Origin: Phytohabitans maris
GTDB lineage: Bacteria; Actinomycetota; Actinomycetes; Mycobacteriales; Micromonosporaceae
DNA length: 64,000 bases
Assembly: GCF_031085175.1 (NCBI RefSeq)
Contig: NZ_JAVHUY010000047.1
Span: 1 to 64,000 of the forward strand
Reading direction: 5' to 3'
Position numbers and translations under genes: made by a program. The notes beneath the pieces are model-generated. The model searched no databases. It was not told the origin of the DNA and saw only the letters and a list, made by a program, of their open reading frames with translations. The stretch's first letter is position 1. The number at the start of each line of letters is the position of its first letter. Below, one piece after another: positions 14,561 through 29,762 of the stretch.

Positions 14561-14619
14561 TTCCACCCCTTGGGCGTGACATGATGTGGACCCCCATGAT
14601 CCAGGAGGTCCCGCATCCG

Positions 14620-15396
14620 ATGAGCCGTGGCATCGCGCTCGTGCGGCAGCCCAGCAGCCGCCTCGCCGAAGGGCTGGTTACCCACATCGAGCGGTCGACT
14701 GTGGACGTCGACCTCGCCCGGCGCCAGCACGACGCGTACTGCGCCGCCCTCGCCGACGCCGGCTGGAGCGTGCTCGACGTGGTACCCGCCGACCACTGCC
14801 CCGACTCCGTCTTCGTGGAGGACACCGTCGTGGTGAGCGGCACCCGGGCCATCCTCGCCCGCCCCGGCGCCTCCCAGCGCCGCCCCGAGGTGGCCGGCAC
14901 CGAATCGGCCGTACGCGCGGTCGGGCTGGAGGTCGACAAGATCAGCTCGCCCGGCACGCTGGATGGCGGCGACATCCTCCAGATCGGCGACACCGTCTAC
15001 GTTGGACAGGGCGGCCGCACCAACGGCGCCGCGATCCGCCAGCTACGCGGCCTGCTCGCCGACCGCCGCGTGGTGGCCGTGCCACTCGGCCGGGTCCTGC
15101 ACCTCAAGTCGGCCGTGACCGCCCTACCGGACGGCACCGTGGTCGCCTCGCCCGGCCTGGTCGACGTCGGCATCTTCCCCGCCGTCCGCACGGTCGAGGA
15201 GGACGCCGGCTGCCACGTCGTCTGCCTCGGCGGCGACAAGGTGATGATCAGCGCATCCGCGCCCAAGACCACCTCGCTGCTGGAAGACCTCGGCTTCACG
15301 CCGGTGGTGGTCGACGTGAGCGAGTTCGAAAAGCTCGAAGGCTGCGTCACCTGCCTCAGCGTGCTCGTGCCCGGCGTCAGCGGCCCGCAACACTAG
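14620..15396 (+). CDS. ddaH: Dimethylargininase (NG,NG-dimethylarginine dimethylaminohydrolase)
   Basis: 258-aa amidinotransferase-fold enzyme that hydrolyses methylated arginines to citrulline and methylamines. Active-site elements are visible: substrate loop SVFVEDTVVV (63-72), TLDGGDIL (113-120), catalytic His161 in LHLKSAVTAL and nucleophile Cys245 in LEGCVTCLS near the C-terminus. The ATG at 14620 is chosen over 14581 because AGGAGG sits about 10 nt before it and the family starts here. It stands alone, convergent with the citE-like gene. Arginine deiminase is less likely given the short length. Confidence 0.9.
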   Translation: MSRGIALVRQPSSRLAEGLVTHIERSTVDVDLARRQHDAYCAALADAGWSVLDVVPADHCPDSVFVEDTVVVSGTRAILARPGASQRRPEVAGTESAVRAVGLEVDKISSPGTLDGGDILQIGDTVYVGQGGRTNGAAIRQLRGLLADRRVVAVPLGRVLHLKSAVTALPDGTVVASPGLVDVGIFPAVRTVEEDAGCHVVCLGGDKVMISASAPKTTSLLEDLGFTPVVVDVSEFEKLEGCVTCLSVLVPGVSGPQH

Positions 15397-15591: not shown

Positions 15592-16383
15592 TCACGGTCT
15601 TTCGGCGTAGCGGGCGGCTAGCTCGACCACGCGGCGGGCGGCGCCCAGCATGGCGCGGTCGGCGAAGCGGCCGTCCGGCAGGATCAGCGGGCCGTCGCCG
15701 GACGACGCGAGGCCGGCGAGCAGCGCCTCCGCGCGTGCCACCTCCTCGGGCTCCGGGCGAAAGGCGGCCACGATCACCGGGAGCTGGCGGGGGTGGATCG
15801 CCGCGCGGCCGAGGAAGCCGAGCCGGCGGCCGGCGCGGCAGGAGGCCGCTAGGCCGTCCACATCGGACACGCTCGGGTAGACGGACATCGCCGGCGGCGG
15901 GAGGCCCGCGGCGCGGGCGGCCACGACCAGCCGGCCGCGCGGCCAGGCCAGGGCGGCCTCGTCGGTCACGCCCAGGTCGGAGCGGAGGTCGGCCTCGCCG
16001 AGCCCGATGCCGGCCACCGCCGGGTGGGCGGTCGCGATCTGGTACGCGTTCTCCACGCCGAGCGCCGACTCGATGATCGGATGCAGCTCCGCGCCGGCCA
16101 GCGCGGCCACCGCCCGCACCTGCTCGGCGGACTCGACCTTGGGCAGGCGCAGTCCGGCCGCGCCCTGGGCGGCGGGCAGGTCGAGCACGGAGGCGATCCG
16201 GACGTACACCGGCACCTCGTGCGGGTCGGCGAGAAACTCGGCGACGGCCGCCCGCGCGTACGCCTTGCGGGGCGCGGCGACCGCGTCCTCCAGGTCGAGG
16301 ATCACCGCGTCCGCGCCGGAGGCGACCGCCTTGGCGAAGCGGTCCGGCCGGTCGCCGGGCACGTACAGCCAGGTGAGCAGCAT
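15592..16383 (-). CDS. HpcH/HpaI (CitE-like) CoA-ester lyase
   Basis: 263-aa TIM-barrel lyase: MLLTWLYVPGDRPDRFAKAVASGADAVILDLEDAVA (substrate-phosphate and metal-binding region), PVYVRIAS (arginine), PKVESAEQV (metal glutamate) and GLGEADLRSDLG (metal aspartate). CitE-like stand-alone enzymes cleave or form malyl-, citramalyl- or related CoA esters. Its ATG overlaps the stop of the CoA-transferase gene (ATGA), which would supply the CoA thioester. It is the last gene of the 11-gene operon beginning at the LacI gene. Confidence 0.88.
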   Translation of the reverse strand: MLLTWLYVPGDRPDRFAKAVASGADAVILDLEDAVAAPRKAYARAAVAEFLADPHEVPVYVRIASVLDLPAAQGAAGLRLPKVESAEQVRAVAALAGAELHPIIESALGVENAYQIATAHPAVAGIGLGEADLRSDLGVTDEAALAWPRGRLVVAARAAGLPPPAMSVYPSVSDVDGLAASCRAGRRLGFLGRAAIHPRQLPVIVAAFRPEPEEVARAEALLAGLASSGDGPLILPDGRFADRAMLGAARRVVELAARYAERP

Positions 16384-17570
16384 CAGATCACCCCGCCCTC
16401 GCGCAGCCCCTCGATCTCCTCGGCGGTGTAGCCGAGCGACCGGAGCACGTCCACCGTGTCGTGCCCGTGCGCCCGCCCGGCGTGCCGGATGGCACCGGGC
16501 GTGGCGGACATGCGGAAGGGGACGTTCTGCATCCGTACGGTGCCGAAGTCGCCGTCCGGCACCGGGACGGCGGTGCCGAGCGCGGTGTACTGCGGGTCGG
16601 CCAGGATGTCCCGCACGTCGTACACCGGGGCGACCGCGGCCTGTGCCGCCTCGAAGGCGGCCACCACCTCGTCCCGGTCCCGGGCGGCGACCCAGGCGGC
16701 CACGGCCGAGTCCAGCTCGTCGGCGTGCGCCGCCCGCCCCGACCCGGTGGCGAACCACGGCTGCTCGACCAGGTCCGGGCGCCCGACGAGGCGTACCACC
16801 CGCTCGGCGATGCTCAGCGCGCTCGTCGAGACGGCGACCCAGCGGCCGTCGGCGCACCGGTACGTGTTGCGGGGCGCGTTGTTGTCCGACCGGTTGCCGC
16901 GCCGGGGCTGGACGTAGCCGAGCTGGTCGTACCAGGTGATCTGCGGCCCCAGCATCGCCATGATCGGCTCGATGATGGCGAGGTCGATCACCTGCCCGGC
17001 GCCGGTGCGCTGGCGGGCGTGCAGGGCGAGCATCACCGCGTACGCGGTGGCGAGCGCGGTCACCGAGTCGGCCAGCCCGAACGGGGGCAGCGTCGGCGGC
17101 CCGTCCGGCTCGCCGGTGGCGGCGGCGAAGCCGCTCATCGCCTCGGCGAGCGTGCCGAAGCCGGGCCGCCGGGCGTACGGGCCGATCTGGCCGAAGCCGG
17201 AGATCCGCGCGACCACCAGGCCGGGGTTGGCTTCGTGCAGCACCTCCGGCCCGATCCCCCACCGCTCCAGCGTGCCCGGGCGGAAGTTTTCGACGAGCAC
17301 GTCCGCTCCGGCGACCAGCCTCTTGAGCACGGCAGCGCCGAGCGGCGACGACAGGTCGAGTGTGACCGTGCGCTTGTTTCGGCCGAGCACCTTCCACCAC
17401 AGCCCCTGGCCGTCCTTGGCCGGGCCGTGGCCGCGCGACGGGTCCGGCTTGGTGGGGTGCTCGACCTTCACCACATCGGCCCCGAAGTCACCGAGGAACG
17501 CCGCGGCAAGCGGGCCGGCGAAGAGTGTCGCCGTCTCGATCACGCGTACGCCGTTGAGCGCCGGGTTCAC
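16383..17570 (-). CDS. CaiB/BaiF family (class III) CoA-transferase
   Basis: 395 aa from a GTG inside a GTGA overlap with the preceding gene. It starts MNPALNGVRVIETATLFAGPLAAAFLGDFGADVVKVE, the signature of class III CoA-transferases, and includes VLVENFRPGTLERWG and FGLADSVTALATAYAV, the region carrying the catalytic aspartate. It moves CoA between carboxylic acids. Together with the downstream CitE-like lyase it could activate and cleave a C4-C6 hydroxy-acid. Finding such a pair inside a sugar-import operon suggests the aglycone or side chain of the imported compound is an organic acid; that is inference. Confidence 0.9.
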   Translation of the reverse strand: MNPALNGVRVIETATLFAGPLAAAFLGDFGADVVKVEHPTKPDPSRGHGPAKDGQGLWWKVLGRNKRTVTLDLSSPLGAAVLKRLVAGADVLVENFRPGTLERWGIGPEVLHEANPGLVVARISGFGQIGPYARRPGFGTLAEAMSGFAAATGEPDGPPTLPPFGLADSVTALATAYAVMLALHARQRTGAGQVIDLAIIEPIMAMLGPQITWYDQLGYVQPRRGNRSDNNAPRNTYRCADGRWVAVSTSALSIAERVVRLVGRPDLVEQPWFATGSGRAAHADELDSAVAAWVAARDRDEVVAAFEAAQAAVAPVYDVRDILADPQYTALGTAVPVPDGDFGTVRMQNVPFRMSATPGAIRHAGRAHGHDTVDVLRSLGYTAEEIEGLREGGVI

Positions 17571-19567
17571 GGCGTGACCTCGGTCAGGAAGACGTCGCCG
17601 CTGGTCAGGCCGGTCACGAGGAGCCGGTCGCCGGAGCGGACCGCGTAGAGGTTCTCCTCGCCGAACTCGTCCACGCCGTCGTCGCGGGCGGTGCCGAGCT
17701 GGGCCGCGGACTGTTGCCGGCCCCGGCCGTCGAGGCGCAGCGCGAAGACGTCCGCGCCGCCGGCCGGTACGCCGAACGTGCTGCCGGTGAAGCCGACCAC
17801 CGCGACCGCGCCGCCGGGCAGCGCGACCACCTCGGCGCCCGCGTCGTCGCCCCGGCCGCCGCTGACCGTGCGCCACCGCTGGGCGCCACCGCTCGTGTAG
17901 GCGGTGGTGAGCGCGTCGCCGCCGGCCGCGCCGGTCGCCACCACCACGCCCGCGGTGGTGACGGCCACGCCGCCGAAGAGGTCGCCGTCGGCCTTGACCC
18001 ACCGCGGCGCACCGTCCACAGTGAACGCAGCCACGAACCCGTCGGTGCCGCCGAGGTAGGGCGCGCCGGGCAGCCCGGCCGACGTCACGCCCGCGACGTA
18101 GGCCCCGCCGGCGTCGGCTGCCACCGCGTAGCCCTTGTCCTCGCCGGCGCCGCCGAGCTGCCGGGTCCAGGCGACCGTGCCGTCCGGGCCGATCCGGGCC
18201 AGGATCACGTCCTTGTCGCCCGCGCTCGGGCCGGCCAGCGCGCCGCTGGTGTAGCCGGCGACGTACACGCCGCCGTCCGGCGCGGCGGTCAGGCCGTAGA
18301 AGCGATCCGCCTTGGTGGCGTCGCCGAGCTGGGTCAGCCAGGCCAGCTCGCCGGTCGCCGTGAAGCGGGCCACGAACCCGTCGTCGGCCGGGCTCCCCGG
18401 ATGCTCGCCGTCCAGGTCGCCGCGCGTGTACCCGGCGACGATCACACCACCGTCCGCCGTGGACACCGCACCGTAGAGGCGGTCGTTGGACGGTGTGCCA
18501 AGCTGCTTCGTCCACTGTGGTGCCTGCACGACGGCGTCCAGCCCGCCCGCGTACGGCTGCCCGTCCACCGGGCCGGAGGCTGAGAAGGCGACGGTGCCGC
18601 CGGGCGTGACGCCACCCGCCCAGTCGGTGCCGGGCGTGCCTCTCAGCGGTCCGGGAATGCCGGTCGGCGGGGTGGCACTGAGCGTGGAGCTCAGCTCGGT
18701 CAGCCCGGCCACGAACGCGGGCCGCCACACGTCCCAGTCGTGCCCGCCGTCGAGCACCCGGAACTGCGCGGCGACCGCGTCCGAGCGGCGCACGTTGTTG
18801 TAGAGCGTCGCCGCCTCGTAGTCGAGGTCGTGCCTGGCGTCGGCCGGGTCGGGGTTGGCCCACTCGTCGTCGCCGACCGCGATGAACATCCTGACCGGCA
18901 GGTCAGCGTCCAAAGCGGGCAGCAGGGCCGGGTAGGTGAGCCGCTGGTACACCTCGTCGACGAAGCGCTCGCCGCCCTGGCCGAACCCGCCGTACTCGCG
19001 GGCGGAGGAGTCGGCCGGCGGCAGCGGGTTGTAGACGGCCGGGCTGAGCACGAGCGCGTTGGCGAAGAGGTCCTGGTGGGCGAGGGCGTAGCGGAGCGCG
19101 CCGTAGCCGCCCATCGAGTAGCCGCCGATCAGCCGGGCCCCGCGGTGCGCCGCCGTGCGGTACGTGGTGTCCACATGCGACACGAGGTCGCCGGTGAGCA
19201 TCGTCTCGACCGCGCTGCCGCCCTCGTACGCCGAGTCGACGTACCAGCTTCCCCGCTCGCTCCACGGGGCGTCGGGCAGCACGGCGATGACCGGTGCGAT
19301 CGTGCCGTCGTCGATGAGCTTGTCGAGGTCGGCCTTGATCTGGGTCCACGCCCGCATGGTGTCGCCGCGCCCGTGCAGCAGGTAGAGCGCCGGGTAGCGG
19401 AGCTTGGCGTTCTTGCGCGCACCGTACCCGTAGGGCAGGTAGACCGTGTAGTCGATCGGGCCGGCCTTCGCGGTGGTGAGCGTGCCGGCGCGGGTGCCGC
19501 CGGCCGACGCCGCGCTCGATACGCCGACGGTCAGCAGGATCAGCACGGCGACGAGTACCTTCCTCAT
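17567..19567 (-). CDS. Secreted esterase fused to SBBP beta-propeller
   Basis: 666 aa. Residues 1-22 are a signal peptide (MRKVLVAVLILLTVGVSSAASA). Residues about 30-300 are an esterase-D/PF00756-like alpha/beta hydrolase with Ser151 (GGYSMGGYG), probable acid in VGDDEW (232-236) and His276 (GGHDWDVW). Residues about 330-660 hold at least six SBBP-type blades of roughly 50 residues (recurring pattern G-R-Y-G, D-G-G-V, V-A-G-Y-T). The propeller may bind polysaccharide while the esterase removes acyl or feruloyl groups. It overlaps both neighbours by 4 bp, so it is translated with cytoplasmic sugar-catabolic enzymes although it is itself exported. Confidence 0.85.
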   Translation of the reverse strand: MRKVLVAVLILLTVGVSSAASAGGTRAGTLTTAKAGPIDYTVYLPYGYGARKNAKLRYPALYLLHGRGDTMRAWTQIKADLDKLIDDGTIAPVIAVLPDAPWSERGSWYVDSAYEGGSAVETMLTGDLVSHVDTTYRTAAHRGARLIGGYSMGGYGALRYALAHQDLFANALVLSPAVYNPLPPADSSAREYGGFGQGGERFVDEVYQRLTYPALLPALDADLPVRMFIAVGDDEWANPDPADARHDLDYEAATLYNNVRRSDAVAAQFRVLDGGHDWDVWRPAFVAGLTELSSTLSATPPTGIPGPLRGTPGTDWAGGVTPGGTVAFSASGPVDGQPYAGGLDAVVQAPQWTKQLGTPSNDRLYGAVSTADGGVIVAGYTRGDLDGEHPGSPADDGFVARFTATGELAWLTQLGDATKADRFYGLTAAPDGGVYVAGYTSGALAGPSAGDKDVILARIGPDGTVAWTRQLGGAGEDKGYAVAADAGGAYVAGVTSAGLPGAPYLGGTDGFVAAFTVDGAPRWVKADGDLFGGVAVTTAGVVVATGAAGGDALTTAYTSGGAQRWRTVSGGRGDDAGAEVVALPGGAVAVVGFTGSTFGVPAGGADVFALRLDGRGRQQSAAQLGTARDDGVDEFGEENLYAVRSGDRLLVTGLTSGDVFLTEVTP

Positions 19568-21492
19568 TGGACCCCTCCGGTGAGGTCAGCGGCGCAGCGA
19601 AAGCCGACGCTCGGCGAGCGGCCCAGCCCAGCGCCGGCGGTCAGCAGCTTGACGGAGACCTCGGGTGGCTGCGGGCCGCCGTCGAGGTACCAGTCGGAAC
19701 CCTCGGCGCGAAAGTCCGCGCCACCCTTGAGAATCACAAACCGCGTGCGGCCGTCGGTGTGCTCGCTCTCGGTCAGCTCCCACACCAGCGGCGCGGTGCG
19801 GCGCAGCAGTCCCGCCTCGGCGGCCACCTGCCACTCGTCTTCGGTCGGCAGCCGCAGGCGAGCCCAGGCCGCGTACGCCCGCGCATCGGCCAGGTCCACA
19901 TTGGTCACCGGGTGATCGACCGGCCCCTGCCCGGCGGTGAAACGCTCCGGACGCACCGGCCGGTAGCCGGTGGCGGCCAGGAACGCCGCGTACTCGCCGT
20001 GCGTCACCTCGCGCTCCGCGATCGCGAACGGCCTCAGCGTCACCGCCCGGAGCAGCGTGCCGGCGCTGTGCAGCCGGGGCGGGAGCGGCTTCCACTCGTC
20101 CACATAGGGCGCCTCGCCGTAGAGCCCGGTCTCCCGGATCCGGTGCCGCACAAGCAGATCCCGTCGCCCTCCGTCGAGGGCCAGCATCCCTTCCGGTACG
20201 GCGTCTCGGGGCGCGACGGGCACCGGAGCGCGGACCGCGGCACGGGCCGGAAAGCCCGGGTCACCGCCGGGCGGCGCGTGCCGGCTTTCCGGTCCGCCCA
20301 CGGCGACCGCGGCTATCCCGCCCGCCGCCAGCCGGCCACCCACGGCCACCTTGCCGCCCTCGACCGGCGTCACGGTGAGCGCCTCGCCGGTCAGCAGGTC
20401 GACGAAGCCCGGCGCCGGCTCGGTCACCAGCCACGGGCCGTCGACGTCGCCGCCCCGGTTGACTACCGTCCACAGTGGCGTGCCGGCGTGCACCCAGCGG
20501 GACGCGTACACCTGGCCACCGGCGTGGTCGGCGAGCGGGGTCCAGTCTTCCGACCGCAGCCAGTCGGCGTGGCCGCGGTGCACCCGCCGCATCGCGCGCA
20601 GCAGGGAGCGGTCCCGCTCGCTCCAGCCGACCCAGACGCCGAAGACGCTCTCCCACACCAGGATGCCGGTGCCGTTGAGCCAGGCGGAGTGCAGCTCGTC
20701 CAGGTGGCCGCGGTGCCAGCGGCGGGTGTGGTGCAGCACGTGCCGGCGCTCGAACCACTTGGCCCGCAGCACACCCGGTACGTCCGAGTCGGCGAACCAC
20801 TGCGCCCACGACATCGCGTGGTCCTCGATGCGGGCGAGCGGTACCCGCGACTCGCCGGCCAGCACCACGTGCGGCGGGAGCGCGGCGCGCAGCTTGCCGG
20901 CACCCTCCTTGAGCGTGTCGAGGAAGACGCCGTCCGCGCCCAGCCAGGTGACGATCGCGGCCACGGCCTCCTCGTCGCCGGCCGCCTCACGCCGGGTGCC
21001 GGTGTCCCACGGGTTGTAGTCGACGAAGACGCGTACGCCCCGGGCGTGGAAGGCGCGGACCACGTCGGGCAGCTCCAGCACGTCGCGGTAGAAGTCGAAC
21101 TGGTTGCGGTCGTCCAGCCCGATGACCGGGTACGCGTGCCAGAGCACCACCCCGTCGAAGCCGCCGAAGTCACGCTCCGCCCCGTCCAGGAACGCGTCCA
21201 CGGTGAACTCCCCCCGCTCGTGGTCGTACAGCGTCTCGTCCCAGAGCCAGGCGAGGCAGACGCTGAGGCAGTCGCCGGGCACCTCGTCGTAGTGCCGGCC
21301 GTCGTAGCCGAGGCGCCGCCGCGCGTCCGCCCGCCACGCGGCGAGCCGTTCCCGCCAGGCCGGCCAGAACGCGGGGTCGGCGGGCGCCGCGAAGATCTTC
21401 GCCTCGTCCAGCTCGGCCAGGTCGGCGCCGCCGTCCAGTGACACCTCGGTCGGCAGGTCGATCGGGCGCGGCACGTACGGGTTGAAGCTCAT
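19564..21492 (-). CDS. TIM-barrel glycosidase-like protein with C-terminal FGE/SUMF1 domain
   Basis: 642 aa, no signal peptide. Residues about 1-400 look like a TIM-barrel glycoside hydrolase: GGFDGVVLWHAYPVIG, RGVRVFVDYNPWDTG, LGADGVFLDTLKEG and HVVLAGESR resemble the successive strands carrying catalytic acids, but I cannot assign a GH family. Residues about 430-640 are a formylglycine-generating-enzyme-like fold (FAIAEREVTHGEYAAFLAATGYRP, RLPTEDEWQVAAEAG, SVGFRCAADL). The two cysteines that make FGE an oxidase are absent from the expected late positions, so this half is probably a binding domain. It overlaps the ribokinase and esterase genes by 4 bp each. Confidence 0.75.
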   Translation of the reverse strand: MSFNPYVPRPIDLPTEVSLDGGADLAELDEAKIFAAPADPAFWPAWRERLAAWRADARRRLGYDGRHYDEVPGDCLSVCLAWLWDETLYDHERGEFTVDAFLDGAERDFGGFDGVVLWHAYPVIGLDDRNQFDFYRDVLELPDVVRAFHARGVRVFVDYNPWDTGTRREAAGDEEAVAAIVTWLGADGVFLDTLKEGAGKLRAALPPHVVLAGESRVPLARIEDHAMSWAQWFADSDVPGVLRAKWFERRHVLHHTRRWHRGHLDELHSAWLNGTGILVWESVFGVWVGWSERDRSLLRAMRRVHRGHADWLRSEDWTPLADHAGGQVYASRWVHAGTPLWTVVNRGGDVDGPWLVTEPAPGFVDLLTGEALTVTPVEGGKVAVGGRLAAGGIAAVAVGGPESRHAPPGGDPGFPARAAVRAPVPVAPRDAVPEGMLALDGGRRDLLVRHRIRETGLYGEAPYVDEWKPLPPRLHSAGTLLRAVTLRPFAIAEREVTHGEYAAFLAATGYRPVRPERFTAGQGPVDHPVTNVDLADARAYAAWARLRLPTEDEWQVAAEAGLLRRTAPLVWELTESEHTDGRTRFVILKGGADFRAEGSDWYLDGGPQPPEVSVKLLTAGAGLGRSPSVGFRCAADLTGGVQ

Positions 21493-22370
21493 AGGGCCGC
21501 CTCGATCTCCGCGCGGGTGGGCAGTGAGCTGGAGGCGCCCGGCCGGGTGGCGCAGACGGCACCGGCCGCGCAGGCCCAGCGGAGCGCCTCCCCGACCGGC
21601 CGCCCCTCGGCCCAGGCGACGGCGAGCGCCCCGGTGAACGCGTCGCCGGCGGCGGTCGTGTCCACCGCCTCCACCGCCGGCGCGGCCACGTCGAGCCGCA
21701 GCCCGTCGCGGTCGGCGTAGGCGGCGCCCCGGGCACCGAGGGTCATCACCACGCGGGGCACCAGGTCGAGCAGGTCGGCCGGCTGGGCGGGATGCCCGGC
21801 GAGCACCTCGGCCTCACCCTCGTTGACCACGAGCAGGTCCACCGTGGACAGCAGCTCCGCCGGGAGGCGGCGGGCAGGCGCCGCGTTGAGCACGGCGACG
21901 GTACCGGCCGCGCGGGCGGTCGCGGCCGCCTCGGCGACCGCTTCGAGGGGGATCTCCAGCTGGCAGAGCAGCACGTCGGCACCGGCGACCGCGGCCCGGT
22001 CCTCGGCCGAGAGGCCGGTGAGCGCCGCGTTGGCGCCGGGCGCGACCACGATGAGGTTTTCCGCGTGCCGGTCCACCGCGATCAGCGCCACGCCGGACGG
22101 GCCGGGCACGGTGCGCAGCCGGGTCACGTCGACGCCCGCCGCGGCGAGGTTGTCCCGCTGTGGGCGGGCGAAGTCGTCACCGCCGACCGCGCCGACGAAC
22201 GCCACCTCGCCACCGGCCCGCGCGGCGGCGACGGCCTGGTTGGCGCCCTTGCCGCCCGGGACGGTGGTGAACTCGCCGCCGAGCACCGTCTCCCCCGGCC
22301 GGGGCAGGGCCGGCGCGGTCACCACGAGGTCGAGGTTGGCGCTGCCCACGACGACGACCCGGGCCGTCAT
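21489..22370 (-). CDS. rbsK: Ribokinase (PfkB family)
   Basis: 293-aa PfkB sugar kinase that phosphorylates ribose at O5. It shows the substrate motif GSANLDLV (9-16), GGKGANQA (39-46) and the C-terminal anion hole VDTTAAGDAFTG with catalytic Asp243. The start ATG overlaps the stop of the ADP-ribosylglycohydrolase gene. Placement behind two ADP-ribosylglycohydrolase-family genes and an ABC importer suggests it captures ribose released from an imported ribosyl compound. A second ribokinase lies at 30224-31123. Confidence 0.9.
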   Translation of the reverse strand: MTARVVVVGSANLDLVVTAPALPRPGETVLGGEFTTVPGGKGANQAVAAARAGGEVAFVGAVGGDDFARPQRDNLAAAGVDVTRLRTVPGPSGVALIAVDRHAENLIVVAPGANAALTGLSAEDRAAVAGADVLLCQLEIPLEAVAEAAATARAAGTVAVLNAAPARRLPAELLSTVDLLVVNEGEAEVLAGHPAQPADLLDLVPRVVMTLGARGAAYADRDGLRLDVAAPAVEAVDTTAAGDAFTGALAVAWAEGRPVGEALRWACAAGAVCATRPGASSSLPTRAEIEAAL

Positions 22371-23653
22371 AACGCCACCTGCGCCGTACGCCGGGCCAGT
22401 TCCTCGAACGTCACCCCGTCGAAGCCGCCGACGCTGCTGCGCAGCCGCCCCTTGAGCGGTGCGGTCCACTGTGGGCCGATCGCTGAGGCGCCACTCAGCG
22501 CGCCGAGGATCGAGCCGACCGTCGCGCCGTTGGAGTCGGTGTCCCAGCCGCCGCTCACCACCGCGCAGATCCCCCGGTCGAAGTCGCCGCCGCTGTACGC
22601 GAGCGCGGCGGCCACGAGCGCGGCGTTGTTGCGGGCGTGCACCCAGTGCAGGTGCCCGTGGCGCCTCTCGATCGCGTCGACGACCGGCTCCCAGTCGCCG
22701 TCCAGCGCCCGCGCCTGCTTGACGGCGGCGGCGAACGGGCCCTCCGGCAGCACCGACTCACCGGCGTCCAGCACCTCGTCCACCGTGGACGCCACGACGG
22801 CGGTGGCGGTCATCGCGGCCACCCACATCGCGCCCGCGACGCCGTCGCCGACGTGGCTGACCACCGCGTCCCGGTACGCCAATGCGGCCGCCGCCTTCGG
22901 CCGGCCCGGCGAGGCCCAGCCGTACGCGTCGGTGCGGATCTGGGCGCCGATCCACTCCCGGAACGGGTTGTGGTGCAGCGCGGTCTCCGGCGGGGTCAGG
23001 CCGAGCAGCAGGTTGCGGTACGCCACCCGTTCGGCGGTGAAGACCCGCCCGGCCGGCAGCCAGTCCAGCCACGCCTGGGCCACGTCGGCGCTGGTGAGCT
23101 CGGTCCCGTGCGCCTCCAGCAGGCGGAGCGCGAGGAGCGCGAAGTTGAGGTCGTCGTCCTCGGGGGTGCCGTCGATGTTCTCGGCGAGGCTGTCGACCGC
23201 GCTGCGGCGGTTCCACGGCCAGCGCTCGGCCACGCTGGGCGGGAGCCCTTCGGCGGTGAAGTACCCCGACAGGGGCCACCGCCCGGTCGCGCTGAGGATC
23301 TCCCGGATCCCCTCGCGCGGGATCTTCTCCACGGGCTTGCCGAGCACGCAGCCGACCGCCCGCCCGGTCCAGGCCCCGAGGAGCCGCTCCGCATCGGGGC
23401 GCGGCCCGGGACCCGGCTCCGGCGCGATGCCGAGCGGCGGGGTCCGCGGCACCGGTACCGCGTCGAGCAGCTCCAGCGCCAGCCCGCGCAGCGCCGGGTC
23501 GCCGGGCACGGAGGCACCGGCGATCGGTGCGGCCAGCGGACCGCCGGCGGCCGCCCAGCGGGCCTCCACATCGGACACGTCGGGGCCTTCGTCGCGGAGC
23601 GCCATCAGCTCGTACGGCAGCAGCTCCTCCGGCGCCGTCCAGGTAAACCTCAC
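22367..23653 (-). CDS. ADP-ribosylglycohydrolase family protein (first of two)
   Basis: 428 aa from a GTG in a GTGA overlap. The ARH/DraG helical fold is recognised by GAWTGRAVGCVLGKPVE, the first metal cluster PEDDDLNFALL (usually TDDT) and the second GGWDTDSNGATVGSILGAL (usually DTDT), so both magnesium sites appear intact with conservative changes. About 110 extra N-terminal residues (MRFTWTAPEELLPYELM...) precede the ARH core and match nothing I recognise. ARH enzymes cleave N- or O-glycosidic bonds to ADP-ribose, but relatives in sugar operons probably act on other ribosides. Confidence 0.85.
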   Translation of the reverse strand: MRFTWTAPEELLPYELMALRDEGPDVSDVEARWAAAGGPLAAPIAGASVPGDPALRGLALELLDAVPVPRTPPLGIAPEPGPGPRPDAERLLGAWTGRAVGCVLGKPVEKIPREGIREILSATGRWPLSGYFTAEGLPPSVAERWPWNRRSAVDSLAENIDGTPEDDDLNFALLALRLLEAHGTELTSADVAQAWLDWLPAGRVFTAERVAYRNLLLGLTPPETALHHNPFREWIGAQIRTDAYGWASPGRPKAAAALAYRDAVVSHVGDGVAGAMWVAAMTATAVVASTVDEVLDAGESVLPEGPFAAAVKQARALDGDWEPVVDAIERRHGHLHWVHARNNAALVAAALAYSGGDFDRGICAVVSGGWDTDSNGATVGSILGALSGASAIGPQWTAPLKGRLRSSVGGFDGVTFEELARRTAQVAL

Positions 23654-24864
23654 GCCAGCCCCTTGAAGCGGTCGGCGCGCGCGGCGAAGCGGGCGGCGTC
23701 GGCGGCGTACACCTCGGCGGCGACCGCGGCCAGCACCCGTGCCGGCTCGGCGAGGTCCACTCTGGACGCCTCGGCCACGGCGGAGGCCCATTGGGCGGGG
23801 ACGGCCGGCGCGCCGCCCAGCGCGCCGGCGATCGCCCCCGCCATGGTGGCGGTCGAGTCGGCGTCCCGGCCGTAGTTGACCGCCCCCAACACCGCTTCCC
23901 GGTACCCCCCGTTGGCGATGACGAGCATGCCGAGCGCGATCGGCAGCTCCTCTATGGAGTGCAGCCGGCTCGGCCGCCTCGCCCCGAGCCCCGGGTTGCG
24001 GTAGTCCTCGCCCACGGTGTCGTACGGCGCCACCGCGGCACGCAGCGCCGGGATGGCGTTACGCGTCTCCTCGTACCCGCTGGCCCGCTGGACCACAGCG
24101 GCGATCGCGGCGCGCGTCCCGTCTCTGGCCAGGTCGAGCGCCGCGTCGACGACGTCGCGGCAGGTCGCGCCCGGCGCCATCGCGGCGGCGACCGAGGCGG
24201 CGAAGACCGCGGCCGCCTCGCGGCCGTAACTGTGCTGGTGGGCGCCGCCGATCTCGACGGCCTCGGCGTACGCGCCGGCGGGGTCGCCGGCGTTGACGAT
24301 GCCGACCGGCGCCATGTACATCGCGGCGCCGCAGTTGACGATGTTGCCCACGCCCGCCTCGCGCGGGTCGGCGTGCGCGTGGTGCAGCCGGGTGACCAGC
24401 CACCGTTCGGCGGCCGCGAGGCGGTGGAAGGCCACCGCCTCGCGCTCCAGGTCCGGGATCCAGACCTCCCGCTCGATGAGGTCGGGCACGAGCAGCTCGG
24501 CGACGTCGTACGCGTCGAGGTGGTCGCGCTTCTTCGCGTAGGCCCGGACCAGCGCGTGGGTCATCAACGTGTCGTCGGTGATGTGCCCGTCGCCCTTGTG
24601 GTACGGGGCGAGCGGCCGGTTCGTGGCCCAGTTCTCGTGGAACGGGGGCACGATGCCGTCCACCCAGCCGCCGTACCGCGTCCGGATCTCCTCGGGAAGG
24701 GCGGTCTCGGTGGCACCGCCGAGGGCATCGCCCACCGCGGCGCCGACGAGGCAGCCGACCGACTTGTCGAGCAAGAGACTCCCAGGCAGCGCCTGCCACG
24801 CTCCGTCGCTCGGCGCTCGTCCGCCGTCGTGGTCAGGGCCCGTAGCCTCACGACTCCCGCTCAT
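23650..24864 (-). CDS. ADP-ribosylglycohydrolase family protein (second of two)
   Basis: 404 aa. The ARH core starts at about residue 33 (LDKSVGCLVGAAVGDALGGATE), with first metal motif GHITDDTLMTHALVRAYA and second NYGRDADSTATMAGAIAGALGG, both canonical. It is closer to textbook ARH than its neighbour, so the two are not a recent duplication and may act on different bonds or form a heterodimer. The ATG at 24864 is chosen because it lies 1 bp past the binding-protein stop, in step with the tight operon; an upstream in-frame start would overlap that gene. No signal peptide, so it acts in the cytoplasm after import. Confidence 0.87.
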   Translation of the reverse strand: MSGSREATGPDHDGGRAPSDGAWQALPGSLLLDKSVGCLVGAAVGDALGGATETALPEEIRTRYGGWVDGIVPPFHENWATNRPLAPYHKGDGHITDDTLMTHALVRAYAKKRDHLDAYDVAELLVPDLIEREVWIPDLEREAVAFHRLAAAERWLVTRLHHAHADPREAGVGNIVNCGAAMYMAPVGIVNAGDPAGAYAEAVEIGGAHQHSYGREAAAVFAASVAAAMAPGATCRDVVDAALDLARDGTRAAIAAVVQRASGYEETRNAIPALRAAVAPYDTVGEDYRNPGLGARRPSRLHSIEELPIALGMLVIANGGYREAVLGAVNYGRDADSTATMAGAIAGALGGAPAVPAQWASAVAEASRVDLAEPARVLAAVAAEVYAADAARFAARADRFKGLA

Positions 24865-24865
24865 T

Positions 24866-26137
24866 CTAGCGAAGAACCTGCTTCCCACCGTCGACCAGCT
24901 GCGTGCCGAGCTGGTCCAGCGTTATCTTGTTGGCGAAGTACTGCTGCAGAGCCGGCGTGGCGTACTTGGTCTTCCACTCCGGATATCCACTGACCGTCTG
25001 AAATGGAGCGATCGTCAGGTCGGCCGCGCTCGCCACCGCCACGTCCCAGCCCTGCTTGCCGCCGGTCGCCTTGACCAGCTCCTCGCCCGCCTTCCTGCCG
25101 GTCGGCACGAGCCAGTCGCCCTGCGCGAGGCGGGCCTGGTTGGCCGGGTTGAGGAAGTACTCGACGAACTGCGCCGCCTGCTTCTTGCCCGCCGAATCCT
25201 CCGAAATGGAGAGTGTCTGCGGGTTGGCCGCCTGGTTGGCCGTGGTGCCCTTGACGGGCGGCAGCGTCACCCACTCGAAGCCGGCCGGCGCCTGCTCCAC
25301 CATCTGCTGGCGGAGGAAGACCCCGCCGGGCAGCATCGCGTACTTGCCGGCGAAGAAGCCGGGCAGCGGGTCGGTGCCGCCCATGCCGACCGCGTCCGGG
25401 GAGGCCGTCTTGGAAACGTAGATCATGTCGTGGATGCGGCGCGGGATCTCCTTCTCCGCGTCGCCGACCTTCACCTCGGTCTTGCCGCCCTCGGTGTAGA
25501 AGAACTTGCCGTCGAAGTTGAGCGACAGGTTCATCACCCGGTTGGTCGGCGACTTGAGCGCCCAGGCGACGCCGTACGTGCCGCCCTTGGTGAGTTTCTG
25601 CGCGTTGGCCTGGAACTCGTCCCAGGTCCACGCCTGCCCGGCCGCCGGCACGGTCACGCCGGCCGCGTCGAGCAGCTTCTTGTTGGCGATGACGACCTGC
25701 GACTCCAGCAGGAACGGCGCGCCGGCCACCTTGCCGTCGACCGTGACCGTGTCCCAGATGCCCTGGCTGATCTCCGACTTGAAGTCGTCACTCAGCAGCC
25801 CGGAGAGGTCGGCGAGGTACCCCTGCTCGGCGAACTCGCCGATCGACGCGCTCTCGTACTGGAAGACGTCCGGCGCGTCCCCGCCCTCGAACGAGGTGAG
25901 CAACTGGTCGTGCACGGAGTTCCAGTCACCCTGGACGTACTCGACCTGGATGTCGGGGTGCTCGGCGTTCCACTTGTCGACCAGCTCACGGTTGGCGGCC
26001 AGCGACTCCTTCTGCCACGCGAGGCTGAGGAAGCGGAGCTTGACCGGGCCTTCGGAGGTTTCCTCGTCGCCTCCGCCACCGCAGCCGGACAGTCCAATGA
26101 GGAGCGCCGCGGACACGGCGACCAACTTTCTCAACAT
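24866..26137 (-). CDS. Sugar ABC transporter substrate-binding lipoprotein
   Basis: 423-aa family 1 (MalE-like) extracellular binding protein. The signal peptide ends in a lipobox, LSGC, with the lipidated Cys19, then GGGGDEE. The mature part has the usual two-lobed pattern (KLRFLSLAWQKESLAANRELVDKWNAEHP at the start; NPANQARLAQGDWLVPTGRK near the end). AAGGAG lies 9 nt before the ATG. It feeds the two permeases encoded just upstream. No ATPase gene is in the operon, so a shared MsiK-type ATPase is probably used. Confidence 0.93.
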   Translation of the reverse strand: MLRKLVAVSAALLIGLSGCGGGGDEETSEGPVKLRFLSLAWQKESLAANRELVDKWNAEHPDIQVEYVQGDWNSVHDQLLTSFEGGDAPDVFQYESASIGEFAEQGYLADLSGLLSDDFKSEISQGIWDTVTVDGKVAGAPFLLESQVVIANKKLLDAAGVTVPAAGQAWTWDEFQANAQKLTKGGTYGVAWALKSPTNRVMNLSLNFDGKFFYTEGGKTEVKVGDAEKEIPRRIHDMIYVSKTASPDAVGMGGTDPLPGFFAGKYAMLPGGVFLRQQMVEQAPAGFEWVTLPPVKGTTANQAANPQTLSISEDSAGKKQAAQFVEYFLNPANQARLAQGDWLVPTGRKAGEELVKATGGKQGWDVAVASAADLTIAPFQTVSGYPEWKTKYATPALQQYFANKITLDQLGTQLVDGGKQVLR

Positions 26138-26150
26138 GGGGGTGTACTCC

Positions 26151-26198
26151 TTAACCCTTGGCGGCACCAGCGAGTTAGCCCTTGACGGCGCCAGCGAG
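26151..26198. repeat. 24-bp tandem duplication across a stop codon
   Basis: 26175-26198, the last eight codons of the permease including TAA, is repeated almost exactly at 26151-26174, again in frame and again ending in TAA. The second TAA merges into the Shine-Dalgarno of the binding-protein gene. Confidence 0.75.
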
Positions 26199-27008
26199 CG
26201 ACCCGGAGGTCAGCCGGCGCTGCAGGAATGCGAAGAAGAGAAGGCTCGGGACGGTCGCCAGCAGCGAGCCGGCGGCGAGGGGTCCGAGCCGCGCGATCCC
26301 CTCGACGCCCACGAACCTGGCCAGCGTCACCGGCAGGGTCGCGAGGTCGGGGCTCTTGAGCAGTACGAGCGCGAAGAAGAACTCGTTCCACGCGGAGATG
26401 AAGGCGAACAGGGACGTGGCCACCACACCGGGGGCGAGCAGCGGGGCGACCACCCGACGCAGCGTCTGCAACCGGGTGGCACCGTCGACGGCGGCGGCCT
26501 CCTCCAGCTCGCGCGGGATGTTGCGGACGAAGCCCTGCAGCATCCACAGCGCGAACGGCAGTGCCCACACGACGTAGACCAGGACGAGGCCGGCGTGGGT
26601 GTTGACCAGGTCGACCTGTCGGAGGATGAGAAACAGCGGAATCACCAGCAGCACGAACGGAAACAGCTGGGACAGCAGCACCCAGCCGAGCGCGACCGTG
26701 CCGAGCCGGGTCTTGAAGCGGGCCAGCGCGTACGCGGCGGGCAGCGCCACGAGCACGGTCAGCACCGCCGTCGCCAGCGAGACCTGGAGGCTGTTGAGCG
26801 CGGCCCGGCCGAGCTCCTGCTCCGTGAACGCCTCGACGTAGTTGTCGAACGTCGGGTTGTGCGGGACGAGCGTGGGATGTATCTCCACCATCTCCCGCGG
26901 CGGCTTGAAGCTCGTCGAGAGCATCCAGACGAGCGGGAAGCCGAGGAACACCATGTATCCCAGGAGCGCGACGTACTGGAGTGCCTTTGTGGTGCGACGC
27001 GCCTTCAT
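26175..27008 (-). CDS. Carbohydrate ABC transporter permease (MalG type)
   Basis: 277-aa membrane protein with six helices and the EAA loop EAAAVDGATRLQTLRRVVAPLLAPG that docks the ATPase. It ends LTSGSLAGAVKG, typical of MalG-like subunits. It starts in an ATGA overlap with the other permease, and its 3' end is followed by a 24-bp duplicate of its final codons. Confidence 0.93.
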   Translation of the reverse strand: MKARRTTKALQYVALLGYMVFLGFPLVWMLSTSFKPPREMVEIHPTLVPHNPTFDNYVEAFTEQELGRAALNSLQVSLATAVLTVLVALPAAYALARFKTRLGTVALGWVLLSQLFPFVLLVIPLFLILRQVDLVNTHAGLVLVYVVWALPFALWMLQGFVRNIPRELEEAAAVDGATRLQTLRRVVAPLLAPGVVATSLFAFISAWNEFFFALVLLKSPDLATLPVTLARFVGVEGIARLGPLAAGSLLATVPSLLFFAFLQRRLTSGSLAGAVKG

Positions 27009-27904
27009 GCGTTCGCCTCCCGCAGCCTTCTGCGTAGGTACACGGCGAGGAGCGCGACGATGATGACCACCATCACGTTGCCGAGCGCGGCGGCGTAGCC
27101 GTAGTTGCCGTACCGGAACGCCTCCTCGTACGCGAAGAGCATCGGCAGCATCGTGCGGCCGCCCGGCCCGCCCGCGGTGAGCACGTAGACGAGGCCGAAC
27201 GAGTTGAAGTTCCAGATGAAGTCGAGGGACGTGATGGCGATGACGACCGGCATCAGGTTGGGGATGGTGACGCTGCGGAAGCGTTGCCACGCCGACGCTC
27301 CGTCCACCGCGGCCGCCTCGTGCAGCTCGCGCGGCACCCCTTGCAGGCCGGCGAGGAGCACGATGGTGGTCTGCGGCATGCCGGCCCAGATGCCGACCAG
27401 GATGACGGCGGGCAGCGCGGTGCTGAAGTCGCCGAGCCAGTTGTGCCGCAACCCTTCCGCGCCGCCCCGGTAGAGCATCTCGTTGAGCAGCCCGGCGTCC
27501 GGGTGGTAGACCAGCCGCCACATGATGCCGACGATCACCGGTGGCATCGCCCACGGCACCAGCGCCATCACCCGCGCGAAGCCGCGGAAGCGCAGCGGCT
27601 GGTCGAGCAGCAGCGCCAGCCCGAGCGCGAGCACGAACTGCAGGATCGTCACCCCGAACGCCCACACCAGCCCGATCCGGAACGCGCTCCAGAACAGGTC
27701 GTCGCTGAGCAGCTCGCGATAGTTGTCGATACCGGTGAAGCTGGTGTCGACGTCGCGGCCGGCGCGGGCGTCGGTGAAGCCGAGATAGATTCCGCGCAGC
27801 AGCGGCACCACCGACAGGACGAGCACCGGCAGGAGCGCGGGCAGCAGCAGGAGGTAGACCGTGGTCCGGTCCGACCGCGCTCGGGCCCGCGCGACTGTCG
27901 TCAT
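27005..27904 (-). CDS. Carbohydrate ABC transporter permease (MalF type)
   Basis: 299-aa permease. Hydrophobic helices begin at YLLLLPALLPVLVLSVVPLL, and the EAA loop is HEAAAVDGASAWQRFRSVTIPNLMP. It forms a heterodimer with the MalG-type subunit. The ATG overlaps the stop of the LacI gene (ATGA), so repressor and importer are translationally coupled. Confidence 0.93.
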   Translation of the reverse strand: MTTVARARARSDRTTVYLLLLPALLPVLVLSVVPLLRGIYLGFTDARAGRDVDTSFTGIDNYRELLSDDLFWSAFRIGLVWAFGVTILQFVLALGLALLLDQPLRFRGFARVMALVPWAMPPVIVGIMWRLVYHPDAGLLNEMLYRGGAEGLRHNWLGDFSTALPAVILVGIWAGMPQTTIVLLAGLQGVPRELHEAAAVDGASAWQRFRSVTIPNLMPVVIAITSLDFIWNFNSFGLVYVLTAGGPGGRTMLPMLFAYEEAFRYGNYGYAAALGNVMVVIIVALLAVYLRRRLREANA

Positions 27905-28932
27905 TGGACGCCGCCGCTCGAGGTCCGGACCACCAGGCTGGGCGCGACGTGCTCGCGCCGGGGTACCAGCGTGCCGTCCGCGATACGGTCGAGCAGCAGG
28001 CGGGCGGCGAGCTTGCCACGCTCGGCCGAGCCGAGCGAAACCGAGGAGATCTGCGGAAACGACATCTGCGCGAGCTCGGTGTCGTCCATGCCCACCAGGG
28101 CCACGTCCTCGGGCACGCGCCGGCCGGTCACCAGGAGCGCGTGCAGGGCACCGACCGCGATGAGGTCGTTGGCGCAGACGATGGCGTCGGGCTCGGCCCG
28201 GGCGAGCAGCCGCTGGGCGGCGGCCCGCCCCGCGGCGTACTGGAAGTCGCCGACCTCCACCATCGCCGGCTCCACGGCCAGCCCGTGACGCGCCATCGCC
28301 GCGCGAAAGCCGGCATCGCGGGCGGCTCCCGGCACCGTGTCCAGCGGGCCGTTGACAAACCCGATCCGGGTACGCCCGGCGGCTACCAGATGGTCGACGG
28401 CGAGGGCGACGCCGGTGCGCGAGTCGGCCCGCACGTTGTCGACGGGCACGTCCTCGGGGAGCTGGCCGACCACGACCACCGGCACCGGGCTGGCCGTGAG
28501 CGCCGCCACGTGCGCCTCGGTGACGCGGATCGGGGAAATGATCATGCCATCGACGTAGCGGTGGGCCAGCCGCCGCAGTAACGCGGTCTCGCCGGCCACG
28601 TTCCCGCCCGTCGCGTGTACGAGCAGCTGATGTCCCGACTCGGCGACCACGGCCTCGATCGCCCGCATCATCGCCACGTACACCGGGTTGCCGATGTCCT
28701 CGACGGCGAGCGCGATGAGCCCGGTCCGCTGCGACTGGAGGGAGCGCGCGATCGCGTTCGGCACGTACCCGACCGCGGCGGCCGCCTCCCGCACCCGCCG
28801 GACGGTCTCGGCGCTGCCGCCGAGACCGTTGAGCACCCGCGAGGCAGACGCGATCGACACCCCCGCCCGGGCCGCGACGGTGTGCACCGTCGGCCGCCCG
28901 TCGACAGCATCCTGTAAACGTTTACGACCCAC
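27901..28932 (-). CDS. LacI-family transcriptional repressor of the riboside operon
   Basis: 343 aa: helix-turn-helix TVHTVAARAGVSIASASRVLNGLGGS followed by the hinge and a periplasmic-binding-protein-like effector domain (GLIALAVEDIGNPVY to the C-terminus). The GTG at 28932 is supported by GGAGG 8 nt upstream. Codons 3-7 contain a perfect LacI operator, GTAAACGTTTAC, and a second near-perfect site lies at the promoter, so the protein should repress its own transcription and the ten genes behind it until its sugar ligand arrives. Confidence 0.92.
   Translation of the reverse strand: MGRKRLQDAVDGRPTVHTVAARAGVSIASASRVLNGLGGSAETVRRVREAAAAVGYVPNAIARSLQSQRTGLIALAVEDIGNPVYVAMMRAIEAVVAESGHQLLVHATGGNVAGETALLRRLAHRYVDGMIISPIRVTEAHVAALTASPVPVVVVGQLPEDVPVDNVRADSRTGVALAVDHLVAAGRTRIGFVNGPLDTVPGAARDAGFRAAMARHGLAVEPAMVEVGDFQYAAGRAAAQRLLARAEPDAIVCANDLIAVGALHALLVTGRRVPEDVALVGMDDTELAQMSFPQISSVSLGSAERGKLAARLLLDRIADGTLVPRREHVAPSLVVRTSSGGVQ
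28914..28925. promoter_or_regulatory. LacI operator O1 (inside the lacI-like coding region)
   Basis: Perfect 12-bp palindrome GTAAACGTTTAC with the central CG typical of LacI/GalR sites, lying in codons 3-7 of the repressor gene. Confidence 0.8.
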
Positions 28933-28956
28933 AGGCCGTACCTCCGGAACTCATCT

Positions 28957-28968
28957 GTAAACGTTTCC
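28957..28968. promoter_or_regulatory. LacI operator O2 at the transcription start
   Basis: GTAAACGTTTCC, one base from a perfect palindrome, centred 43 bp (about four helical turns) from O1. It sits about 5 nt downstream of the -10 box, so it covers the predicted transcription start. Confidence 0.8.
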
Positions 28969-28972
28969 AAGG

Positions 28973-29484: not shown

Positions 29485-29513
29485 AGAGCCTTCGCACCCC
29501 GCCCCCCACGTAT

Positions 29514-29567
29514 GTGATCGAAGCTCCCCTCAAGTCGCTCTAGCGACTTGAGGGGAGCTTCGATCAC
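29514..29567. repeat. 54-nt palindromic element, copy B
   Basis: Inverted repeat pairing over essentially its whole length, starting GTGATCGAAGCTCCCC. Compared with copy A, three stem positions differ and all three are compensated in the opposite arm. Confidence 0.85.
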
Positions 29568-29762
29568 AGGCCATCACCCGACTCCGAAAGCTCCAGACGC
29601 CATCGCGCTCGGACGCGGCGGTCGCACGCCTCAAGATCCCGACAAGTCAGGGATTTTGCTGCTACCTCAGAGCGGGCCCCGGCCCTGGTCGGTCCGCGTG
29701 GGTTGCGAAACGCGGAGGGTGTGGCCGCAGGGAGCAAGGGTCCGGACCCAATGCCACTCACG

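Follow-up and report, generated by a model that had tools for sequence, protein, structure and literature searches.

An eleven-gene operon of Phytohabitans maris couples ARH-fold proteins with CaiB and CitE and may encode a catabolic glycoside pathway

Introduction

DraG, ARH1 and ARH3 are ADP-ribosyl hydrolases of the ADP-ribosylglycohydrolase (ARH) family. The number of putative ADP-ribosyl hydrolases described for Streptomyces coelicolor far exceeds that of its known transferases, a finding called surprising in the available text of a previous study (PMC5087735). Among the candidates, SCO2028–SCO2031 are listed in excerpts of two papers as uncharacterized DraG/ARH homologues (PMC9411070, PMC5087735), and an excerpt of a third tells of purified SCO2028 and SCO2030, neither of which acted detectably on the one substrate given, U-alpha-ADPr (PMC13036486, 2026). 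The accessible portions of this literature present SCO2028–SCO2031 as ADP-ribose hydrolases and do not mention CaiB and CitE; SCO2032 and SCO2033 were absent from the four papers found. Here, an operon from the soil actinobacterium Phytohabitans maris, with counterparts in many other actinobacteria, is described in which two ARH genes, called ARH1 and ARH2 in the following, sit together with CaiB and CitE and with genes for a LacI-family regulator, an ATP-binding cassette (ABC) importer, a ribokinase-like kinase, a predicted TIM-barrel glycosidase and an esterase. It is located in a stretch of 64,000 nucleotides (contig NZ_JAVHUY010000047.1, positions 1 to 64,000), the whole of which is called the window.

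The two proteins resemble DraG, ARH1 and ARH3 of the literature in fold and metal motifs, but they score far under the equivalog cut-offs and have a catabolic context. According to the part of PMC10819704 that was available, the yegTUV operon of Escherichia coli (GgaR/YegW regulon) likewise combines a transporter, an ARH-family protein and a PfkB sugar kinase in one operon; in contrast to the window operon, it has a nucleoside-type symporter of the major facilitator superfamily, a GntR regulator and only one ARH, it is devoid of CaiB/CitE, and its function is likewise unsolved. The itaconate degradation genes (Ict/Ich/Ccl, RipABC) resemble the operon in two respects, a family III CoA-transferase relative and a CitE for which RipC is the top NCBIfam match, but the operon has no hydratase, its CitE scores under the cut-off and it is linked to ARHs. 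In a published survey of LacI regulons no ARH regulon was found, as far as the accessible sections show (PMC4052901). A first-pass annotation, made from the sequence alone, had stated that no characterised pathway with this set of genes was known, and indeed none is described in the open-access literature that was searched.

Results

The operon and its regulator

The operon comprises eleven open reading frames (ORFs) on the minus strand at positions 15592–28932, the first of which starts at 28932. Their names are backed by Pfam and NCBIfam profile matches, and in gene order they are, followed by the two operators:

27901–28932, minus strand: LacI-family regulator, 343 amino acids (aa), GTG start (PF00356, PF13377)
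27005–27904, minus strand: ABC permease 1 (PF00528)
26175–27008, minus strand: ABC permease 2 (PF00528)
24866–26137, minus strand: solute-binding lipoprotein of CUT1 type (SBP_bac_1; PF01547, 133.9 bits), N-terminus ending ...LSGCG
23650–24864, minus strand: ARH1, ARH-fold protein (PF03747, 161.1 bits), metal motifs TDDT and GRDADS
22367–23653, minus strand: ARH2, ARH-fold protein with N-terminal extension, GTG start (PF03747, 171.9 bits), motifs EDDD and WDTDS
21489–22370, minus strand: ribokinase-like PfkB kinase (PF00294, 212.7 bits)
19564–21492, minus strand: predicted TIM-barrel glycosidase (642 aa) with C-terminal domain like formylglycine-generating enzyme (FGE) (PF03781, 77.5 bits at 481–572)
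17567–19567, minus strand: secreted esterase with SBBP repeat (PF00756, 89.9 bits; PF06739), hydrophobic N-terminus, GYSMGG at 149
16383–17570, minus strand: CaiB, family III CoA-transferase, GTG start (PF02515, 410 bits)
15592–16383, minus strand: CitE, HpcH/HpaI-type C-C lyase (PF03328, 99 bits)
28956–28969, strand not assigned: LacI-type operator, upstream copy, pattern YGKAAACGTTTMCR
28913–28926, strand not assigned: LacI-type operator, copy within the first codons of lacI, palindrome pattern YGKAAACGTTTMCR

With the start codons chosen for the eleven ORFs, the ten junctions measure, in gene order, -4, -4, +37, +1, -4, -4, -4, -4, -4 and -1 bp. The first-pass annotation had delimited exactly these eleven genes, and its eight overlaps (1–4 bp) and two gaps (1 bp and 37 bp) were reproduced. 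Its view of the genes as one operon agrees with the gene order across related loci, and its importer and its CoA-transferase/CitE pair agree with the Pfam matches (two permeases and a CUT1-type binding protein; CaiB and CitE, in conserved order).

Control by LacI, which had also been proposed, is likewise consistent with the sequence. Searched across the 9.87-Mb genome, the pattern YGKAAACGTTTMCR matches exactly at just two sites, which both lie at the predicted operon promoter (28913–28969), and the reversed control pattern has no match; in the window, the two matches compare with 0.00 expected from 100 shuffles. In the related loci described below, similar palindromes adjoin lacI in 67 of 70 LacI rows, a raw count (at first 68/71, before the first LacI of locus L051, which is a different LacI, was excluded; of the 72 LacI calls, the script passed over one). 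As exact copies of the operator are confined to its own promoter and similar palindromes lie beside lacI in relatives, the regulator looks dedicated to its own operon. Its best NCBIfam match is RbsR, with 186.6 bits far under the cut-off of 531. Upstream of the operon, a perfect inverted repeat with 27-nt arms and a 2-nt loop is present at 29513–29568; four sites in the genome carry its 18-bp core.

Conservation and linkage of the ARHs to CaiB and CitE

To place the operon among its relatives, 84,980 species genomes were scanned with ARH2, which yielded 423 relatives, and the best 80 loci were kept; the frequencies below thus describe this selection and not the actinobacteria at large. Genes in these loci were called with a codon-usage script, with rough starts and perhaps some missed genes, and some of the loci are truncated. 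ARH2 was called in 80 loci, ARH1 in 79, permease 2 and the binding protein in 76 each, permease 1 in 74, LacI in 72, the kinase (RbsK) in 69, CaiB in 67, CitE in 64, the 642-aa-type hydrolase in 49 and the esterase in 24. ARH1 adjoins ARH2 in 79 of the 80. The full gene order of the window was the commonest one (17 of the 62 loci with both operon ends inside), and 11 more of the 62 differ only by a missing esterase. The nearest relative among the fetched loci belongs to Phytohabitans suffuscus (L008), with 86–97% identity per protein. Because the genes and their order repeat in other genomes, the arrangement is beyond chance, and an origin by chance or artefact was ruled out. A ribose or nucleoside operon with a nucleoside hydrolase or RbsD was also considered and rejected, as an upstream RbsD candidate in L008 is YccF and the other scanned flanking genes are unrelated. 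In 34 loci two additional genes, ARHx2 and ARHx3, lie between the binding protein and ARH1, so that four ARHs stand in a row; L065 and L082 have extra ARHs in a different arrangement. ARHx2 and ARHx3 are absent from the window operon.

CaiB and CitE accompany the ARHs most consistently. ARH1 (E ≤ 1e-70) was found in 43 of 246 genomes of the class, and in 41 of the 43 CaiB lies at most 10 kb away; the two remaining genomes have ARH1 and CaiB on separate contigs. For this count nine of 70 CaiB rows were left out (two truncated, seven weak); only one of their genomes (G487) has ARH1, and it was counted via another row. A tree of 89 CaiBs groups the 72 ARH-linked proteins together, and a single further row, L100, falls within this cluster. 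The ARH-linked proteins do not strictly form one clade: the tree has two label changes, and one change was seen in 36% of the bootstrap trees.

The linkage extends to four Streptomyces-like loci (L085–L088), in which ARHs, CaiB and CitE are flanked by a gltB-like gene on one side and lgt/trp genes on the other. Three of these loci have four called ARHs each; L087 has three, with no ARHx3 call. In contrast to the window, these loci are devoid of LacI, permeases, binding protein, TIM-barrel hydrolase and esterase, and RbsK is present in two. Judged from position and from the papers that list the genes, these loci probably correspond to SCO2028–SCO2033 and their ARHs are probably orthologues of SCO2028–SCO2031, so that the window probably shares orthologous ARH genes with S. 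coelicolor. There, SCO2028–SCO2031 should lie between gltB-like and lgt/trp genes, a position taken in part from PMC5036795. Since Streptomyces-like genomes keep ARH, CaiB and CitE without LacI or transporter, the importer would either be an add-on or have been lost in them.

Features of the ARH-fold proteins

Both window ARHs far exceed the PF03747 cut-off of 26.2 bits, and the two-part metal motif ((T/E)DD and DxD(S/T)) is kept in both. In an alignment of ARH1 relatives the residues T96, D97, D98, D334, D336 and S337 are invariant, and so are the metal motifs in an alignment of ARH2 relatives. Across the related loci, ARH1 has the first motif TDDT and the second motif GRDxDS (79/79), ARH2 has EDDD and G(W/C)DTDS (79/80), and the second motif of ARHx2 is GRDADT (36/36). 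In 33 of 35 ARHx3 proteins the second motif is without its first Asp, and the other two were missed by the search pattern. A tree, in which several long branches were flagged with warnings, separated four distinct subfamilies. ARH1 and ARH2 each form a single group, and so do ARHx2 and ARHx3 once the separately labelled halves of a fused protein are counted. This ARHx2-ARHx3 fusion is encoded between the binding protein and ARH1 in two Allokutzneria loci (L081, L084), and each half groups with its Streptomyces-like counterpart.

A predicted model of ARH2 (pLDDT 90.3) has the DraG/MJ1187/ARH3 fold, with matches to DraG (3o5t, E 1.6e-08) and MJ1187 (TMt 0.77). In the NCBIfam comparison neither equivalog cut-off was reached, neither that of DraG (337.05; window ARHs 53.6 and 21.4 bits) nor that of Tri1 (490; 49.2 bits). 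The two ARH enzymes of the first-pass annotation stand as ARH-fold proteins with retained metal ligands, but related systems often carry four ARH genes. At L093 an ARH2-like gene adjoins a PfkB kinase in an otherwise unrelated context. A second ARH2-like protein is encoded in the genome of P. maris itself (L089, contig C30, 6423–15381), next to a sulfatase, a formylglycine-generating-enzyme-like protein, an Opp-type ABC transporter and an Asparaginase_2 protein; as in the window operon, an FGE-type domain is found beside an ARH.

CaiB and CitE

CaiB resembles formyl-CoA, succinate-glutarate and hydroxymethylglutarate transferases, and its D168 aligns with the catalytic Asp of YfdW, which we take to be Asp169. 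CitE is nearest to RipC/citramalyl-CoA-lyase-type proteins (best NCBIfam match RipC_Ccl, 143.2 bits versus a cut-off of 375; best PDB match 8khl). None of the eleven operon genes encodes a hydratase, so that a CaiB/hydratase/CitE module of the itaconate type is incomplete.

Thirteen contexts of close CaiB/CitE relatives without ARHs were inspected whole or in part, leaving out L104–L108 and part of L109. By eye, cyclase and MmgE/PrpD genes were neighbours in 8 of the 13. Allantoinase/hydantoinase-like genes also occur, and the neighbours at L101, which were checked with Pfam and NCBIfam, include an allantoinase-like amidohydrolase and an FAD enzyme. These contexts are suggestive of dicarboxylate-like acids or ring-opened amides and point no further; the attempt to derive the substrate from them was given up. 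The genome of P. maris contains two CaiB paralogues (62% and 54% identity; L111 and L113 on contigs C4 and C47) in clusters that resemble acid degradation clusters, and the one on C4 includes, by eye, CitE, cyclase, MmgE/PrpD-like and amidohydrolase-like genes.

Importer, kinase and additional hydrolases

The two BPD permeases, together with the SBP_bac_1 binding protein, make up a CUT1 importer. A profile search revealed no dedicated ATPase gene among the eleven; presumably a shared MsiK-type ATPase encoded elsewhere energizes transport. The best PDB match of the binding protein is Lmo0181, and its PDB relatives are numerous and diverse oligosaccharide binders, too diverse to guide a deduction of the substrate, which was dropped.

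The kinase contains the motifs GGKGANQA and DTTAAGDAF, and its best PDB match is a ribokinase (6znx). With the ribokinase model TIGR02152 it reaches 279.6 bits, under the cut-off of 299.65. Its earlier assignment as a ribokinase is thus backed by PF00294 and the best matches, but not by the equivalog score. The other roles named in the first-pass annotation agree with Pfam and NCBIfam, but its pathway scheme had omitted two of the eleven genes, the hydrolase at 19564–21492 and the esterase at 17567–19567, which belong in it.

The 642-aa protein was modelled with a pLDDT of 77.6, poor at 215–249. In Foldseek searches the N-terminal part of the model resembled alpha-amylases and fucosidases and the C-terminal part FGE and EgtB, all with low TM-scores. 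D192 and E214, which follow strands at 188–191 and 210–213, are invariant in 26 sequences. From the model, the protein is probably a glycosidase, though weakly so. Among 66 loci with enough flank, 33 have only the hydrolase, 24 only ARHx2/ARHx3, 9 both and none neither (Fisher p 1.2e-10, relatedness ignored). The hydrolase thus occurs almost in place of ARHx2/ARHx3, and as one or the other or both are present in 66/66, it is as if the glycosidase could replace two ARHs. However, going by record titles and tree labels, 30 of the 33 loci with the hydrolase alone are from Micromonosporaceae, so that few independent events underlie the figure.

Outside the operon, an ORF on the plus strand just past its 3' end (14581–15396) matches arginine deiminase in part (35.6 bits against a cut-off of 22.8). 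A large-type NAD-dependent glutamate dehydrogenase (45703–50655) adjoins a penicillin-binding-protein-like gene with a MecA_N-type domain (50794–52710).

Discussion

The operon is real, conserved and uncharacterised, and it combines an ordinary architecture with an unusual set of enzymes. We favour the view that it encodes a catabolic glycoside pathway, to which we assign a probability of roughly 0.7; that the glycoside is a ribofuranoside is about an even bet. The importer, the regulator and the kinase all come from sugar-catabolic families. The sequence itself shows the gene content and order, the operator site, the retained metal motifs and the stable linkage of ARH, CaiB and CitE. Under LacI control, the CUT1-type importer would take up the glycoside, and the later steps, with their putative compartments, can be proposed from family membership. 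The ARH-fold binuclear-metal hydrolases, two here and up to four elsewhere, would act as small-molecule glycosidases and split the ribofuranosidic bond. The TIM-barrel hydrolase may remove further parts, and so may the esterase, outside the cell. Ribokinase would convert ribose to ribose-5-phosphate, CaiB would pass CoA to the remaining carboxylic part, putatively a hydroxy acid, and CitE would cleave the activated acid into acetyl-CoA and an oxo-acid. As a whole, this scheme is tentative and stands somewhat below even odds. Given their company, a ribose kinase and a pair of enzymes that degrade acids, the ARHs probably serve to break down a nutrient that contains ribose and not to modify proteins. 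Among ribosyl compounds, methanopterin, hydantocidin and others were weighed, but none was retained for want of evidence.

Several observations weigh against this pathway. The PDB relatives of the binding protein bind oligosaccharides, not ribosides. Outside the window the ribose step is the weakest link, because RbsK is missing from some loci (called in 69 of the 80, and in two of the four Streptomyces-like ones). The acid step is weak too, the acid being putative; moreover, there is no hydratase in the operon that could turn an unsaturated acid into a hydroxyacyl-CoA, and of the 80 loci 13 gave no CaiB call and 16 no CitE call, truncated loci included. RbsK and CitE both score under their equivalog cut-offs, the glycosidase assignment of 19564–21492 depends on low TM-scores, the hydrolase/ARHx pattern is confounded by relatedness, and the Streptomyces-like loci lack importer and LacI.

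Some of these points would suit a different sugar. A CUT1 importer with an oligosaccharide-type binding protein, a kinase under the ribokinase cut-off, and a predicted glycosidase and an esterase in the same operon would all fit if the ARHs cut a compound such as an arabinofuranoside, an apioside, a plant glycoside or a fructofuranoside, with the PfkB kinase acting on the sugar released. This is rather unlikely in our estimation, since the kinase best matches ribokinases, the regulator best matches RbsR, albeit under the cut-off, and ARHs with solved structures are ADP-ribose enzymes among the matches listed. The Streptomyces-like loci, which retain the ARH-CaiB-CitE part, and the cyclase, MmgE/PrpD and allantoinase/hydantoinase-like genes beside close CaiB/CitE relatives (8 of 13 contexts, by eye) could instead mean that the core is an acid pathway, in which CaiB and CitE degrade a dicarboxylate, the ARHs hydrolyse a non-glycosidic bond in the same compound, and transporter and kinase are later additions. 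RbsK is, however, within the operon in 69 of 80 loci, and known ARH-fold members act at the ribose C1'' position, according to literature excerpts; we regard this reading as improbable.

It is highly doubtful that the ARHs are true ADP-ribosyl hydrolases in an operon that salvages ADP-ribose or ADP-ribosylated molecules, with the ribokinase taking the ribose end. Membership in PF03747 and the metal motifs would fit, and in the available portions of the literature known family members act on ADP-ribose, including the ARH3-like SCO5809 of S. coelicolor on phosphate-linked ADP-ribose. But neither ARH reaches the DraG or the Tri1 cut-off, Pfam reveals no transferase, macrodomain or Nudix gene among the operon genes, and neither CaiB/CitE nor a CUT1 importer has an evident place in such an operon. 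In addition, SCO2028 and SCO2030, probable orthologues by position, were inactive on U-alpha-ADPr, the one substrate in the excerpt available.

Returning to the ribofuranoside pathway, a more specific version can be formulated, which we consider unlikely in its full form: four ancient ARH subfamilies, arranged as two adjacent pairs, would jointly dismantle a ribofuranosyl conjugate of a hydroxy-dicarboxylic acid, with ARHx3, which has lost one metal ligand and is fused to ARHx2 in Allokutzneria, being the non-catalytic or altered member of its pair, and with the acid half degraded via CaiB and CitE. If it were true, many "ADP-ribosyl hydrolases" of Streptomyces and other actinobacteria would not be erasers of ADP-ribosylation. 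Even without this version, should the four S. coelicolor genes be part of a catabolic operon that also encodes a CoA-transferase and a lyase, they would account for some of the hydrolase excess there, and a family named after one reaction would gain a metabolic branch.

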